This document shows positions 7,112 to 13,102 of a DNA stretch of 22,567 nt, in pieces. Source of the DNA: a virus; IMG/VR virus record IMGVR_UViG_3300044489_000065, positions 1 through 22,567 of that record; one strand, written 5' to 3'. Under the pieces are notes generated by a model, which did not search any database, had not been told where the DNA came from, and saw only the letters and a list, made by a program, of their open reading frames with translations. Each line of letters opens with the position of its first letter. The first letter of the stretch is position 1. The translations under genes were made by a program, and so were the position numbers.

Positions 7112-7188
7112 CACACACCGAAAACATCCCAAAACCGGGTCAAAACCGGGGTCAGACCCCTTTAACCTCAAACAAGGAGGCAGCATGA
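7108..7188 (+). CDS. 26-residue coupled ORF before the methyltransferase (tentative)
   Basis: MTHTENIPKPGQNRGQTPLT, then SNKEAA, starts in an ATGA overlap with the preceding gene and ends in an ATGA overlap with the methyltransferase. It has no SD of its own, and its 3' end carries the strong AAGGAGG of the methyltransferase. It may exist only as spacer and coupling sequence. Confidence 0.3.
   Translation: MTHTENIPKPGQNRGQTPLTSNKEAA
7131..7160. repeat. Short tandem repeat plus GGGGTC-A-GACCCC palindrome
   Basis: AAAACCGGGTC (7131-7141) is followed immediately by AAAACCGGGGTC (7142-7153), which opens the 13-base palindrome GGGGTC-A-GACCCC (7148-7160). Similar GGGGTCAGACCCC hairpins are scattered in many proteobacterial genomes as REP-like elements; this single copy could be a remnant or a coincidence. 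Confidence 0.4.
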
Positions 7189-8345
7189 CACCCATCCGCC
7201 TGCACGACCGTTTTGAGACGCTGTCCATCGACGCGCTGATACCCTACGCACGCAACAGCCGCACGCACTCGCCAGAGCAGGTGGCGCAGATCGCAGCGAG
7301 CCTGCGCGAGTTTGGATTCACGAACCCGGTCCTGATCGACGAGACCGGCGGCATCATCGCGGGTCACGGGCGCGTCATGGCCGCCCGCCAGGCCGGACTG
7401 GATCGCGTGCCCTGCCTGCGTCTGGAGGGACTGACAGAGACACAAAAACGCGCCTACATCATCGCCGACAACAAACTGGCGCTGAATGCCGGGTGGGACG
7501 AAGACCTGCTGGCGCTTGAAATCAAAGACCTGCAAGGCATGGACTTCGACATCGACCTGCTGGGCTTCGACGCCAGCGAGATCGAGCAATACATCGCCAT
7601 GGCAGACGCCACCCCTGACGGCGAGACCGACCCGGACGAAGTGCCAGAGGTGCAGGCCGAGGCGGTGACGAAGCCCGGGGATGTCTGGCTACTCGGCAAG
7701 CATCGGATCATGTGCGGGGACAGCACGAACGCGGAGCAGGTGGCGAGGCTGATGAATGGGGAGAAGGCGTCTGCGTGTTTAACTGACCCACCGTATGGAC
7801 TCGGTAAAAAAATGTCTGGCGGAACATGGGCCACGAATGACTCAAATTATGCAGAAATGCACGAATGGGACAGGGTGGCTGATCAGCGGTTTTTTGATGC
7901 TGTAAGTGCTTTAGAAATTCCGTCGATTGTTTGGGGGGGGAATTACTCTTTATGCCCACCGTCTCGCGGGTGGCTGATATGGAATAAACCGTATTTCCCA
8001 ACAATGTCTGATTGCGAGCTTGCGTGGACAAATATGGACATGAATGCAAAGCGTTTTGACGGCCCGCGTGTTCATCAGTCTGACGGGAAAAAACAGCACC
8101 CGACACAAAAGCCGGTTGATTTGATGGTGTGGTGTTTAGGGTATTTCAAGGATTGCGATTCTGTTGTTGATATATTTTCAGGCTCCGGCACCACCATCAT
8201 CGCCGCCGAGCAAACAGGCCGCCGCTGCTACGCGATGGAGCTGTCGCCGCAGTATGTCGATGTCGCCGTCCGCCGCTGGCAGCGATTTACCGGCAAAACA
8301 GCCACGCTTGAAGCGACCGGAGCGTCGTTCCCGGGTGACGCATGA
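7185..8345 (+). CDS. ParB-like N domain fused to N6-adenine DNA methyltransferase (386 aa)
   Basis: Residues 10-100 form a ParB/Srx-like domain (LSIDALIPYARNSRTHSPEQ, then IAASLREFGFTNPVLID, GIIAGHGRVMAARQAGL). After an acidic linker the methyltransferase begins (KPGDVWLLGKHRIMCGDST): catalytic motif IV is DPPY (201-204) and the AdoMet motif I is FSGSG (331-335), preceded by HPTQKPVDLM. The order DPPY before FxGxG indicates a beta-class adenine methyltransferase. Its likely role is protection of phage DNA from host restriction, or DNA marking. AAGGAGG lies upstream of 7185. The stretch 7801-8160 is about 47% GC (169 of 360 counted), against about 70-73% in sample rows on either side. A G8 run lies at 7933-7940. 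No restriction endonuclease is adjacent. Confidence 0.9.
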   Translation: MTPIRLHDRFETLSIDALIPYARNSRTHSPEQVAQIAASLREFGFTNPVLIDETGGIIAGHGRVMAARQAGLDRVPCLRLEGLTETQKRAYIIADNKLALNAGWDEDLLALEIKDLQGMDFDIDLLGFDASEIEQYIAMADATPDGETDPDEVPEVQAEAVTKPGDVWLLGKHRIMCGDSTNAEQVARLMNGEKASACLTDPPYGLGKKMSGGTWATNDSNYAEMHEWDRVADQRFFDAVSALEIPSIVWGGNYSLCPPSRGWLIWNKPYFPTMSDCELAWTNMDMNAKRFDGPRVHQSDGKKQHPTQKPVDLMVWCLGYFKDCDSVVDIFSGSGTTIIAAEQTGRRCYAMELSPQYVDVAVRRWQRFTGKTATLEATGASFPGDA

Positions 8346-8599: not shown

Positions 8600-10440
8600 A
8601 CCGCCGCTCCGCCGTCACCATCCCGCACGCCCGCCAGCGCCTGTACGAGGTGCTGGCGCGGGCCTGCCGACCGCGACCTGTCACCACCGTTTCGGCATGG
8701 GCCGACAAACACCGCGTGCTGACCTCCAAAGGCTCCGGCGAGCCGGGGCAGTGGCGCACCGATCGCACGCCCTACCTGCGCGAGATCATGGATCACCTCT
8801 CCGTCACATCGGCCACCCAGCGCATCGTGATGATGTTCTCTGCCCAGCTGGGAAAGACTGAAGCGGGACTGAACTGGCTTGGCTATGTCATGGACCACGC
8901 GCCAGGCCCCATGCTGACCGTGCTGCCCACGCTGGAGGTGGCCGAGCGCTGGGTGATGCAGCGGCTCAACCCGATGCTGGGCGAGACACCGGCCCTGCGC
9001 GCCATCTTCGACGCCAGGCGCAGCCGGGATGCGGCGAACTCCAAGCAGATCAAGGATTTTCCCGGCGGCATGCTGGTCATCGGTGGGGCCAACTCCCCGG
9101 CTTCGCTGGCCTCGATGCCGATCCGGTATGTGCTTTGCGATGAGGTGGATCGCTTCCCCTGGGAGGTTGGGCAAGAGGGCGACCCGCTGGGCCTGATCGA
9201 CGAACGCACCAAGACCTTCCCGCGCCGGAAGGTGCTGCTGGTATCCACGCCGACGGTGAAGGGGTCGAGCCGGATCGAGGCCGAGTACGAGAAATCAGAC
9301 CGGCGCGAATACCATGTGCCCTGCCCGCACTGCGGCGAGTATCAGGTGCTGCGCTGGCGTCACCCCGACGGGCGCTACGGGCTGATCCACAACGAGGCCA
9401 CCGGCGCGGTGTACTACGCCTGTTCGGAGTGCGGCGAGCGCATCGAGGGGCACCACAAAACCCAGATGCTGGCGCGCGGGCGCTGGATTCCGCGCAACCC
9501 GGATCGCGCGGTGCGCGGCTACTGGCTGTCCGGCCTGTACTCACCGATCGGGCTGGGCTTCACCTGGGCGGAATTGTGGTCTAAATGGCAGGACAGCCAC
9601 GGCGACACCGCCAACCTCAAGCGATTCATCAACACCACCCTGGGCGAGAGCTGGGAGGAACAGGGCGAGAGCATCCAGGACATGGCGCTGATCGCACGGC
9701 TCGAGGATTACCCCGAGCGACTGCCCATCGCCGTCACCACCGCCGGGGTGGATGTGCAGAAAGACCGCATCGAGGCCAGCATCGTCGGCTGGGGCGCGGG
9801 CGAGGAGGCATGGCTGCTGGATCACATCATCCTACCCGGCGACACGGCACGGCCCGAGGTGTGGACCGACCTGGACGATGCGCTGAAGGATGCGCGGGTG
9901 CAGGTCGCGGCCATCGACAGCGGCTTCAACGCCTCGATGGTTTACGACTTTGTCGATAAGCGCCGCTGGTGCATGGCCATCAAGGGCGTCACCGGCATGG
10001 GCCGCCCGCTGGTCGAGGATGAGAAAAAACGCCGCCAGCGCCTGCGCGCCCGGCGCAAAAAAGGCGCTTTCGTCGAGCCGATCGGCGTAGATCAAGGCAA
10101 GGCGCTGGTGTATTCGCGACTAAAACTCACCCGCACGGGCACGGGCTATATCCACTTTCCGCGCGACCCGGCCTTTGACGATGAGTATTTCGCGCAGCTC
10201 GCCGCCGAGAAGCTGGTCACCAAGGTGCGCGGCACCCGGCCCTTCCAGGAATGGGTGCAGACGCGACCGAGAAACGAGGCGCTGGACTGCCTGCTGTACG
10301 CACTGGCGGCCCTGCGCCTGTCCGGTCGCCCGCTGGACGCGCCGGGCGAACAAGGCGAGGGGAAGCCGACCGAGACACCCGCCGATAAGCCCGCCGATAA
10401 GACCCCCCGGCAGCGGCGGTATTTCGCAACGAGATGGTAG
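8596..10440 (+). CDS. Terminase large subunit, lambda GpA family (614 aa)
   Basis: The packaging motor and nuclease. The ATPase part has the Walker A-like SAQLGKT (82-88) and Walker B VLCDEVD (D182, E183), followed by the coupling-like VLLVSTPT. A zinc-binding insert has CPHC (243-246) and CSEC (276-279). The nuclease domain has acidic residues D386 (GVDVQKD), D441 (AIDSGF) and D564 (NEALDCLLYALAA), as in GpA-type terminases. The length is close to lambda gpA (641 aa). The start at 8596 is in an ATGA overlap with the membrane protein; an upstream start at 8164 would run through the methyltransferase in another frame. The C-terminal 40 residues are a low-complexity tail rich in P, T, K and D. 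Confidence 0.95.
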   Translation: MNRRSAVTIPHARQRLYEVLARACRPRPVTTVSAWADKHRVLTSKGSGEPGQWRTDRTPYLREIMDHLSVTSATQRIVMMFSAQLGKTEAGLNWLGYVMDHAPGPMLTVLPTLEVAERWVMQRLNPMLGETPALRAIFDARRSRDAANSKQIKDFPGGMLVIGGANSPASLASMPIRYVLCDEVDRFPWEVGQEGDPLGLIDERTKTFPRRKVLLVSTPTVKGSSRIEAEYEKSDRREYHVPCPHCGEYQVLRWRHPDGRYGLIHNEATGAVYYACSECGERIEGHHKTQMLARGRWIPRNPDRAVRGYWLSGLYSPIGLGFTWAELWSKWQDSHGDTANLKRFINTTLGESWEEQGESIQDMALIARLEDYPERLPIAVTTAGVDVQKDRIEASIVGWGAGEEAWLLDHIILPGDTARPEVWTDLDDALKDARVQVAAIDSGFNASMVYDFVDKRRWCMAIKGVTGMGRPLVEDEKKRRQRLRARRKKGAFVEPIGVDQGKALVYSRLKLTRTGTGYIHFPRDPAFDDEYFAQLAAEKLVTKVRGTRPFQEWVQTRPRNEALDCLLYALAALRLSGRPLDAPGEQGEGKPTETPADKPADKTPRQRRYFATRW

Positions 10441-11345: not shown

Positions 11346-11570
11346 ATGACCTGGACAGACGAAGAAATCGCCGAGCGCATCGCTCATGCAGGCAGCATTG
11401 AAGATGCGAGATATATACTGCACCGCTTTAAGGATCGGCTGACCTTCGACCTTCTTCACCATGCCGCCGATCTCGAACGCGCGCTGTGGCCGAAGCCAAG
11501 GTTGACGCTGATCCGCCTGCTGGAGACGAGGGCGCGAAAGGCGGCGAAGAAAGCCACTAATATCGGCTGA
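11346..11570 (+). CDS. Hypothetical small helical protein (74 aa)
   Basis: Begins MTWTDEEIAERIAHAGSIED and is mostly helical with a basic C-terminus (LLETRARKAAKKATNIG). It starts two bases after the preceding stop, in the same accessory transcript as the Cys-cluster protein. Its last 14 bases overlap the end of the convergent HTH gene at 11557. I do not recognise the family. Confidence 0.6.
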   Translation: MTWTDEEIAERIAHAGSIEDARYILHRFKDRLTFDLLHHAADLERALWPKPRLTLIRLLETRARKAAKKATNIG

Positions 11571-11778
11571 CGGCTTTCGTGCAAAAAAGCTCCCAGAATG
11601 CCGGGTGCATCCGGCGGTCGCCGGATTCCCACTGCTGCCACGCGCGGCAGGTCGCATGGATGATCTCTGCGGCTGCCGTTTGCGTTAGACCCGCAGCCTC
11701 GCGAGCCGCCCGAATCTCTTCGGGCGACGGGTTGCGGGACGGCGAGCCGCCCCGCGAGCGGTTTGGGTGGTTGGGCAT
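11557..11778 (-). CDS. XRE-type HTH regulator (73 aa), last gene of the antisense operon
   Basis: After a basic N-terminal arm (MPNHPNRSRGGSPSRNPS) comes an XRE-like helix-turn-helix: EEIRAAREAAGLTQTAAAEI, then IHATCRAWQQWESGDRRMHP, ending FWELFCTKAVSRY. The pattern resembles small phage and antitoxin-like HTH regulators. Its start overlaps the stop of the upstream gene (TGATG, 11776-11780). As the only DNA-binding protein of this operon it is the natural candidate to bind the palindrome at 12465-12489, though this is inference. It ends convergently with a 14-base overlap with the plus-strand gene. Confidence 0.75.
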   Translation of the reverse strand: MPNHPNRSRGGSPSRNPSPEEIRAAREAAGLTQTAAAEIIHATCRAWQQWESGDRRMHPAFWELFCTKAVSRY

Positions 11779-12074
11779 CAGAACCCAGCCGCCTGCGCCC
11801 TGGCGCAGAATTGCGCCTCCGTTTCACGGATGCCGCTGGTTGCGACCAGCTCGTTCAGAGCCAGCGTTTTTTCCCGGCTCGCGGCCTCAGCGCGGGCGCG
11901 TTCTTCCGGCGTGTACGGCACATTGACCCAAATTTCGGGCCAGTTCCCCCAGATCCTGATGAATCCTGACTCGTGATCCCAGGAATACCCGGGGACATTT
12001 TCTCGATCAAGGAATTCCTTGATCTCTTTTGACATTTCAAAGGCCGGCGCGGTGGTGTTGGCGTTGGTGTTCAT
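11778..12074 (-). CDS. Hypothetical acidic protein (98 aa), middle gene of the antisense operon
   Basis: AGGAG 8 nt upstream supports the ATG at 12074. The sequence begins MNTNANTTAPAFEMSKEIKE and has an aromatic-rich centre (YSWDHESGFIRIWGNWPEIW), then a charged helix (TPEERARAEAASREKTLALN). There are no membrane segments. I do not recognise the family. It is followed with overlap by an HTH regulator, a layout compatible with a toxin-antitoxin, anti-defence or defence pair, but no catalytic motif supports a choice. Confidence 0.6.
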   Translation of the reverse strand: MNTNANTTAPAFEMSKEIKEFLDRENVPGYSWDHESGFIRIWGNWPEIWVNVPYTPEERARAEAASREKTLALNELVATSGIRETEAQFCARAQAAGF

Positions 12075-12087
12075 TTTCTATCTCCTG

Positions 12088-12375
12088 TTAATTCGCCAAG
12101 GCCATGTAATCCGAAAACCTCGGACAAGTCCACGGGACGGGTTGCGTGGGGCGGTTTTCATCCACGAAACGGTCAACGCGGTCGACAATCGCGTCGATCT
12201 CGGACTGGGAAATCTCCCAGTCCTTTGCGCGAACGACGATCTCGGGATGGCCAGCCTCGTAGCGGCCAGAATCTCCGCCATCAACCACGAACACCGACAC
12301 GCCATAATCGGCTGCGCCGTTCACATAGATACGGGTTTCGTTGTTTTTGGGGTTCACCCATTTCTTGAATTTCAT
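12088..12375 (-). CDS. Hypothetical protein (95 aa), first gene of the antisense operon
   Basis: The start at 12375 is chosen because GGAG lies 6 nt upstream; the longer frame from 12459 would begin inside the -35 element. The sequence begins MKFKKWVNPKNNETRIYVNG, continues with a beta-rich YGVSVFVVDGGDSGRYEAGH, then a helical acidic part (EISQSEIDAIVDRVDRFVDE) and a C-terminal WTCPRFSDYMALAN. It looks like a small soluble alpha/beta protein. I do not recognise the family. Three 60-base rows in this operon count 48, 63 and 52% GC, lower on average than the flanking structural genes. Confidence 0.6.
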   Translation of the reverse strand: MKFKKWVNPKNNETRIYVNGAADYGVSVFVVDGGDSGRYEAGHPEIVVRAKDWEISQSEIDAIVDRVDRFVDENRPTQPVPWTCPRFSDYMALAN

Positions 12376-12430
12376 TTTCTGCTCCAGCCCACTGTTCCCG
12401 AGGCGCGGTTGTGGTCTATCCACGGTTCGC

Positions 12431-12459
12431 ATAATACGCGCATTGTTCGTGTTTGTCAA
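12431..12459 (-). promoter_or_regulatory. Near-consensus sigma70 promoter of the antisense operon
   Basis: On the minus strand TTGACA (12459-12454, perfect) is followed after exactly 17 nt by TATTAT (12436-12431, five of six). The predicted start is about 50 nt upstream of the first gene. It points against the flanking structural genes and is the best sigma70 match I found in the window. Confidence 0.85.
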
Positions 12460-12464
12460 GCGAT

Positions 12465-12489
12465 ATCGTATAAAATGTTTTTATACGAT
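12465..12489. promoter_or_regulatory. 25-bp perfect palindrome, candidate operator of the antisense operon
   Basis: ATCGTATAAAA (12465-12475) and TTTTATACGAT (12479-12489) are exact inverted repeats with 11-bp arms around TGT. CGATATCG (12461-12468) is a second small palindrome overlapping its left edge. The element lies directly upstream of the -35 at 12459. The AT-rich arms argue against a terminator and for a binding site of a dimeric regulator. Confidence 0.75.
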
Positions 12490-12544
12490 AAAGCGTCAAC
12501 AGCCCTGCCTTAACAGGTGACGCGCACGCCATTAAAACGGCGGC

Positions 12545-13102
12545 ATGGCTACACCCACCACCGAACCGACCACCATTGCCGCAGGCGACACCGTCACATG
12601 GCGGCGCGAGCTGCCGGATTATCCGGCAGGCGAATGGACGCTGAAATACAGGCTGATCAATCTCTCCGGCCCTATCGACATCACCGCCGACGCTGACGGG
12701 GCGGCCCATGCCGTCAGCGTTTCAGCCGAAACAACGGCGACATGGGCTGCTGGAACTTATCTCTGGCAGTCTTTTGTCGAGGCCGGTGCGGTGCGGCATA
12801 CCATCGGCGACGGCACTGTTGTTATCAAGCCAAATATCGCGGCCATGCCGGGCGGTTACGATGCACGATCGACCGCCAGAAAAGCGCTCGATGATGCACG
12901 CGCGGCCCGGGCTGCGTACATCGCCACGAACGGCCATGTGGCGGAGTACGAAATCGCAGGGCGGCGCATGAAATATAAAAGCGCGGCAGAGATCGAGGCC
13001 CATATTCAGGCGCTCGAAAGAGAGGTCGCTTCCGAAGCGAAGGCCGAACGACTGGCCGCAGGCCTGCCGTCCGGGAATCGCGTTTTGGTGAGGTTGCGCT
13101 GA
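12545..13102 (+). CDS. Ig-like N-terminal domain plus gpW-like C-terminus: probable head-tail joining protein (185 aa)
   Basis: It occupies the lambda W position, between terminase and portal. Residues 1-95 are beta-rich (TIAAGDTVTWRRELPDYPAG; LKYRLINLSGPIDI; GTYLWQSFVEAGAVRHTIGDG), resembling an Ig-like/fibronectin-type fold. The C-terminal half, from DARSTARKALDDARAARAAY, contains EYEIAGRRMKYKSAAEIEAH, IQALEREVASE and LPSGNRVLVRLR, which resemble gpW and related connectors. I recall similar unannotated proteins at this position in other prophages. gpW itself is only 68 residues. The SD is weak. The stop overlaps the portal start (TGATG, 13100-13104). Confidence 0.6.
   Translation: MATPTTEPTTIAAGDTVTWRRELPDYPAGEWTLKYRLINLSGPIDITADADGAAHAVSVSAETTATWAAGTYLWQSFVEAGAVRHTIGDGTVVIKPNIAAMPGGYDARSTARKALDDARAARAAYIATNGHVAEYEIAGRRMKYKSAAEIEAHIQALEREVASEAKAERLAAGLPSGNRVLVRLR

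Follow-up and report, generated by a model that had tools for sequence, protein, structure and literature searches.

Organization of the Antisense Operon

The window, meaning the whole stretch of DNA that was analysed, is a virus record of 22,567 bases. Three small genes run antisense within its late region, as the original prediction had claimed. The genes and their promoter are as follows:

12375 to 12088, minus strand: gene A, 95 aa, orphan, candidate counter-defence protein
12074 to 11778, minus strand: gene B, 98 aa, orphan, candidate counter-defence protein
11778 to 11557, minus strand: gene C, 73 aa, Aca10-like HTH regulator
12431 to 12459, minus strand: sigma-70-type promoter TTGACA-N17-TATTAT, with the -35 element at 12459-12454 and the -10 element at 12436-12431

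The flanking genes lie on the plus strand and encode TerL (large terminase subunit) before the operon and the head-tail joining, portal, and major head proteins after it. Genes B and C overlap at TGATG. The ORF list also included an alternative gene A of 123 aa from TTG 12459; ATG 12375 is the credible start because TTG 12459 lies upstream of the -10 element. The promoter was found as predicted, with 11 of 12 consensus positions matched, and was the sole promoter-like site between positions 10000 and 14000. Shuffled sequence gave a mean of 1.2 sites in the same scan, so the match by itself is within chance. The same promoter arrangement precedes 65 unique copies of the leader described below. 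A search with the whole region found no DNA similarity to phage records. At 7185-8345 of the window, a ParB-like domain fused to a DNA methyltransferase is encoded immediately upstream of the terminase gene.

Genes A and B had been described as unlike anything known, and this was borne out. Neither matched Pfam, NCBIfam, PADLOC, or phage records, and the best PHROGs match had an E of 0.22. Their relatives were found in only one other contig and were 100% identical. Structure prediction had been proposed for both proteins; the AF2 model of gene A (pLDDT 48.9) was too poor for a structure search, and that of gene B (pLDDT 67.6) gave no PDB fold match at E ≤ 0.001. No anti-CRISPR name could be supported for either gene.

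Relationship of Gene C to Aca10

The best structure match of gene C was PDB 7XI5, with an E of 6.4e-21 over residues 14-68; the next best was 0.0091. The two proteins were 62% identical over a 55-aa segment. Among the DNA-contact and dimer residues of Aca10, Q22, Q37, R44, and E52 were retained and G49 was replaced by Ala. The Pfam family of gene C was HTH_31. According to the available text of PMC9410881, 7XI5 is the Aca10 dimer of Pseudomonas citronellolis, which binds AATACGCTCATTGAGCGTATT within the promoter of acrIC7-acrIC6-aca10. Known Aca families repress through inverted-repeat sites of this sort (PMC9410906, available text).

The operon shares with acrIC7-acrIC6-aca10 the order of two small genes followed by an Aca10-family HTH gene, and a strong promoter. 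In acrIC7-acrIC6-aca10 an inverted repeat separates -35 from -10 (PMC9410881, available text), and the window has a putative, imperfect counterpart at this place. Gene C is the last gene in an operon of small genes, as expected of acr-aca operons. Since gene C is related to Aca10, the operon was placed in the acr-aca type; its HTH gene sets it among anti-CRISPR loci, which are of a known kind. The relationship also supports the original view of an autonomous, probably autoregulated moron with a possible anti-defence role; that interpretation as a whole was partly supported. Taken jointly with the control scheme given below, an acr-aca-type operon with two orphan counter-defence candidates is a probable reading. 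Chromosomal and plasmid Aca10-like relatives exist without the leader or the N-terminal tag described below, so this HTH family is wider than acr operons.

The best NCBIfam model of gene C was the VC1465 family, with 38.6 bits, which could make gene C a Xer-recombination activation factor instead of an operon repressor. This score is far under the model cut-off of 70, and gene C is much closer to Aca10. Such a role is extremely improbable.

Candidate Operators

Two candidate operator sites lie at the promoter:

12433 to 12453, minus strand: proposed Aca10-type operator AACACGAACAATGCGCGTATT, 16 of 21 positions identical to published Aca10 IR2
12464 to 12490, no strand assigned: AT-rich inverted repeat of 27 bp, perfect 12-nt arms with a 3-nt loop, just upstream of -35

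The first site fills the spacer between -35 and -10. It is an imperfect palindrome with a score of 4, and 7 of its 10 palindrome pairs are kept. The core-promoter palindrome score of the 65 leader promoters averaged 4.95, compared with 2.83 after shuffling, and reached at least 6 in 29 of them. The arms of these spacer palindromes differ between phages. Judged from the sequence, the spacer site is the likely, putative operator of gene C.

The 27-bp palindrome had been predicted to be the operator of the HTH protein, at 12465-12489 with 11-bp arms. The palindrome is real, but its extent and arms are those given above. It exceeds chance: when the window was resampled with a Markov model, 1 of 20 replicates had perfect arms of at least 12 nt (loop ≤ 10), and when the local 60 nt were resampled, 0 of 5000 did. 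The full pattern has no other copy in the window, and its half-site had 7 matches there, near chance (5 of 100 shuffles reached as many). Among other loci of this kind, the 75 nt preceding the promoter contained a perfect palindrome with arms of at least 9 at 5 of 175, and none was alike. As the HTH operator it was set aside, because it has no counterpart in other loci and the characterised Aca10 site lies between -35 and -10 (PMC9410881, available text), where the window has its 16/21 match. It is possibly a second operator.

Conserved Leader RNA Upstream of Gene A

A conserved leader follows the promoter; this leader and the N-terminal tag of gene C had been missed in the original prediction. 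Its parts are as follows:

12376 to 12424, minus strand: conserved 5' leader RNA (covariance model R1, 36.8 bits, E 1e-11)
12423-12420 (GTGG) and 12414-12411 (CCAC), minus strand: hairpin H1
12404-12400 (GCCTC) and 12392-12387 (GTGGGC), minus strand: hairpin H2
12385-12382, minus strand: Shine-Dalgarno sequence GGAG

The leader consists of the variable hairpin H1, the hairpin H2 with CCGCGCCUCGGG-N-CAGGGGC, the Shine-Dalgarno sequence, and the ATG. Relatives of gene C were encoded at 46 viral loci, mostly behind unlike small genes. Many of these loci share -35, a palindromic spacer, -10, H1, the constant CCGCGCCTCGGG-N-CAGGGGC, the Shine-Dalgarno sequence, and the ATG. When viral contigs were scanned for the constant part, at least 120 stretches matched, which share the core by construction. 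The leader recurs in more than 100 viral contigs. Single-base variants of the pattern had just 6, 12, and 5 matches in viral contigs, and these counts define the level expected by chance. Among the 130 unique viral instances listed, a start codon lay a short way downstream in 129, an ORF of at least 30 aa was present in 122, and a Shine-Dalgarno match in 120.

In bacterial genomes, a longer pattern matched 51 stretches in 257 billion bases; several, such as those in actinobacterial DNA, were clearly due to chance. When 268 genomes from a single bacterial family were searched with the covariance model, it gave 3 matches, of which two were already known. A blastn search of the leader against phage and plasmid records returned chance-level matches alone (E about 4). 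Rfam 15 gave no match to the leader at gathering thresholds (15 loci), at E ≤ 5 (window 11500-12600), or at E ≤ 1 (8 loci).

The leader is conserved and shows covariation. A hairpin of at least 5 bp ending within 3 nt of the core occurred in 73 of the 130 instances listed, compared with 17.7 on average (at most 26) after shuffling and with 10-27 when the place was slid. The hairpin-bearing instances had 57 different H1 5' arms. In an alignment fitted to the model, all 7 H1 pairs changed on both sides, covariation was 0.143 (0.040 shuffled, at most 0.014 slid), and H2 was nearly invariant. H2 variants were compared by context. The variant CAGAGGC, which keeps the pair (U-G to U-A), was followed by a Shine-Dalgarno sequence and ATG at 6 of 6 sites, 4 of them distinct. 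The pair-breaking variants CAGCGGC (U-C) and CAGTGGC (U-U) had this context at 1 of 12 and 2 of 5 sites, the latter being one sequence twice. Folds predicted for the leaders of the window, L082, and L032 showed an extended H2, in which bases of CCGCG pair with the GG beside or within the Shine-Dalgarno sequence. The window's own H1 has only 4 bp, and its leader folds no better than shuffles (z -0.06).

The constant sequence could instead serve mainly as a DNA exchange site at which phages swap accessory genes by recombination. Its presence before 122 unrelated gene clusters, the tandem copies ahead of successive genes, and the transposase-like genes behind some copies are in line with this. 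However, H1 covaries and differs between copies, which suggests an RNA structure; the context of H2 variants depends on whether they keep or break the pair; and the place relative to the start codon is fixed in 129 of the 130 instances listed. An exchange site as the main function is quite improbable.

Some leader loci had further features. A suspected tendency of leaders to stand behind tRNA genes was not borne out in general: ARAGORN confirmed it at only 1 of 5 loci (L117). There, at 1240-1362, the leader overlaps the end of a tRNA-Glu gene, so it may be released by tRNA processing and not from its own promoter. At 990-1038 of L062, about 600 bases behind the leader, a hammerhead type I ribozyme matched with 28.4 bits (gathering 34). 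L012, which carries the leader and an Aca10-like gene, has an int-alpA RNA at 1092-1159.

N-Terminal Tag and Its Association with the Leader

Where the leader is present, relatives of gene C mostly start with M-x-NHPNR. In the window this tag is:

11746 to 11778, minus strand: N-terminal tag MPNHPNRSRGG of gene C

Aca10 of P. citronellolis has 65 aa, and its aligned part (from residue 3) is without the NHPNR tag. Across the loci examined, 128 non-redundant tagged proteins were found. Their five residues were encoded in 80 different ways, so the peptide itself is conserved. At motif-found loci, 87 tagged ORFs occur together with a counted leader, and 84 of them are situated 0-3 kb downstream on the same strand.

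The leader and the tag were tightly associated. Among Aca10-like viral loci (41 of the 46, with 5 near-duplicates left out), the leader was present at 25 of 29 tagged and 2 of 12 untagged loci (p 5e-5). In bacterial genomes, the only tagged Aca10-like locus carried it, compared with 1 of 16 untagged loci; on plasmids, 0 of 5 untagged loci did. In the unrelated DUF6948 family (80 of 302 relatives), the leader was present at 51 of 54 loci with the tag and at 0 of 26 without it (p 5e-18). The 51/54 is partly post hoc, because the leader rule was widened after the misses of a stricter rule were inspected; under the stricter rule the counts for the same 80 of 302 relatives were 34 of 54 and 0 of 26. 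The antisense control of the tag-leader test was 0. The untagged locus L337 has a decayed leader that neither rule counted. On the DUF6948 tree, which was built from short sequences, the tag changes about 14 times and the leader about 13 times.

There were exceptions. The untagged Aca10-like loci L032, L042, and L269 carry the leader, and by the covariance model L260 is a second untagged bacterial locus with it (19.4 bits). The tagged Aca10-like loci L015, L036, L039 (only 1,028 nt upstream available), and L049 have no leader by the rule used. Of the 13 loci with two or three leaders, 11 encode a single true tagged protein, on the same strand as the leaders, and two encode no such protein; two more tag-pattern matches on the other strand look like chance.

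These data also bear on a simpler explanation, an ordinary acr-aca10-type operon in which the leader only stabilises the mRNA or sets translation through host factors, and the tag has another function, such as protein targeting, and merely travels along. Hairpins at the 5' end of an mRNA can protect it, and H1 starts mostly 4-9 nt past -10, which places it at the mRNA 5' end. Untagged loci bearing the leader exist, and 38 of the 108 leaders with at least 2 kb of downstream sequence have neither a tag nor an Aca10-like gene within 2 kb. Against this, the tag and the leader change together in two unrelated protein families, and one tagged protein is common to several leaders. In DUF6948 loci the two lie side by side and could be transferred on a single piece of DNA. 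In Aca10-like operons hundreds of bases often separate them, so simple joint transfer does not suffice as an explanation. The explanation by a stabilising leader and a passenger tag is rather unlikely.

Proposed Control of the Operon

Gene order, the Aca10 relationship, the promoter, and the operator-like site were directly observed in this analysis. The joint reading that we prefer, and consider reasonably probable, is an acr-aca-type moron operon with HTH repression at the promoter spacer and translational autocontrol through the tag and the leader. Either upon entry or in the prophage state, host RNA polymerase would use the near-consensus promoter to transcribe A-B-C. Genes A and B would supply small counter-defence proteins. 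As C accumulates, its Aca10-like HTH dimer would bind the imperfect inverted repeat in the spacer and shut off transcription, as judged from the characterised homologue. The mRNA would start with the two-hairpin leader, with H1 at its 5' end and the 3' side of H2 reaching into the Shine-Dalgarno sequence. The N-terminal MPNHPNR of C may then bind this leader and repress translation as a second layer; we infer this translational autocontrol, on top of the transcriptional one, from the sequence patterns.

Aca2 of Pectobacterium phage ZF40 acts on both DNA and RNA. The control proposed here resembles it in that an HTH regulator encoded last in an acr operon would control transcription and translation. 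It differs in that Aca2 belongs to another HTH family and that here the RNA-binding part is proposed to be a distinct peptide at the N terminus, which non-HTH proteins carry as well. For the acrIC7-acrIC6-aca10 operon, the available text of PMC9410906 has no mention of leader, hairpin, or translation.

Conserved sequences directly ahead of diverse phage start codons have been described before. The SAS/ESAS of cluster K mycobacteriophages lie just before the start codons of many different genes, about half have inverted repeats, and their function is not settled (PMC3203893, available text). They differ from the leader in their hosts, and the available text describes no HTH gene, peptide tag, or such RNA structure (PMC3203893). 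In archaeal viruses, early counter-defence genes of diverse kinds share a regulatory sequence that marks them; that system has archaeal viruses and promoters, with no RNA leader or tag in the available text (PMC11065993). A literature search with the leader and NHPNR strings found no relevant paper, most subscription journals and preprints being outside its scope. As far as the Rfam and literature-string searches reach, the leader and the tag are undescribed. If they are a regulatory pair, they would bring acr-aca-type operons a class of RNA-binding peptide and a second control layer.

Genes Behind the Leader

The first genes behind the leaders were clustered and searched against known families. 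Nine loci with evident chance matches were excluded beforehand, and 146 of 151 first genes were used; one analysis of the motif loci used 100 of the at least 120. The 146 genes formed 122 clusters, 107 of them single. Few were recognised by Pfam: DUF6948 (7), RadC/JAB (3), and M78 peptidase (2), with single matches to the ArdC N-terminal domain, DUF932, DUF3560, DUF2958, LPD29, and a methyltransferase domain, among others. No match to known Acr models was found among the 146. Counter-defence cargo behind the leaders is likely but unproven. Leader copies also stand in tandem before successive genes. For the 161 motif-found leaders, the nearest Aca10-like gene was on the same strand in 53, on the opposite strand in 0, and absent in 108.

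The RNA and the peptide are constant, and the operators and cargo vary. The simplest account would be that the peptide recognises the RNA and the HTH, if present, recognises its local operator. A broader proposal is tentative, and we hold it somewhat doubtful. In it, the peptide M-x-N-H-P-N-R-[SG]-[RK] and the two-hairpin leader might make up a portable pair of RNA and peptide through which HTH and non-HTH proteins control, in trans, the translation of more than 100 unrelated phage accessory families, many of them unrecognised counter-defence genes. Either way, the leader offers a sequence bait independent of protein similarity, and a search with it for counter-defence genes in phages of Proteobacteria is therefore directly testable. 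The recognisable first genes found with this bait include ArdC, RadC/JAB, and DUF932 proteins.

A toxin-antitoxin module, with C as antitoxin-repressor and A or B as toxin, had been named as an option in the original prediction. An HTH repressor in an operon with small genes would suit it, as would the HigA-type antitoxin gene that directly follows an H2-like core in L188 and L216. The similarity of C to MqsA and HigA that it could draw on is present but weak and below the type II antitoxin cut-off (MqsA 18 bits versus 30, and 31.4 versus 61.8), and C is far closer to Aca10 (6e-21 versus 0.009 or worse). A and B match no toxin family, and the first gene differs in nearly every leader operon (122 clusters among 146). 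A module of this kind is very improbable. In L178, L187, L191, and L199, the gene after the H2-like core is presumably also a HigA-like or similar antitoxin. The H2-like cores of all these loci are mostly without hairpin H1.

The leader operons of L105, L158, L074, L194, L091, and L144 have no close Aca10-like gene, and by eye they often carry another small HTH-like gene; these are possibly further Aca-type regulators. One kind of ORF recurs behind the leader, or behind the leader and a tagged gene, in L056, L059, L093, L113, L126, L132, L137, L139, L154, and L201. It resembles an IS1595-type transposase, and the leader cassette may ride on transposons.
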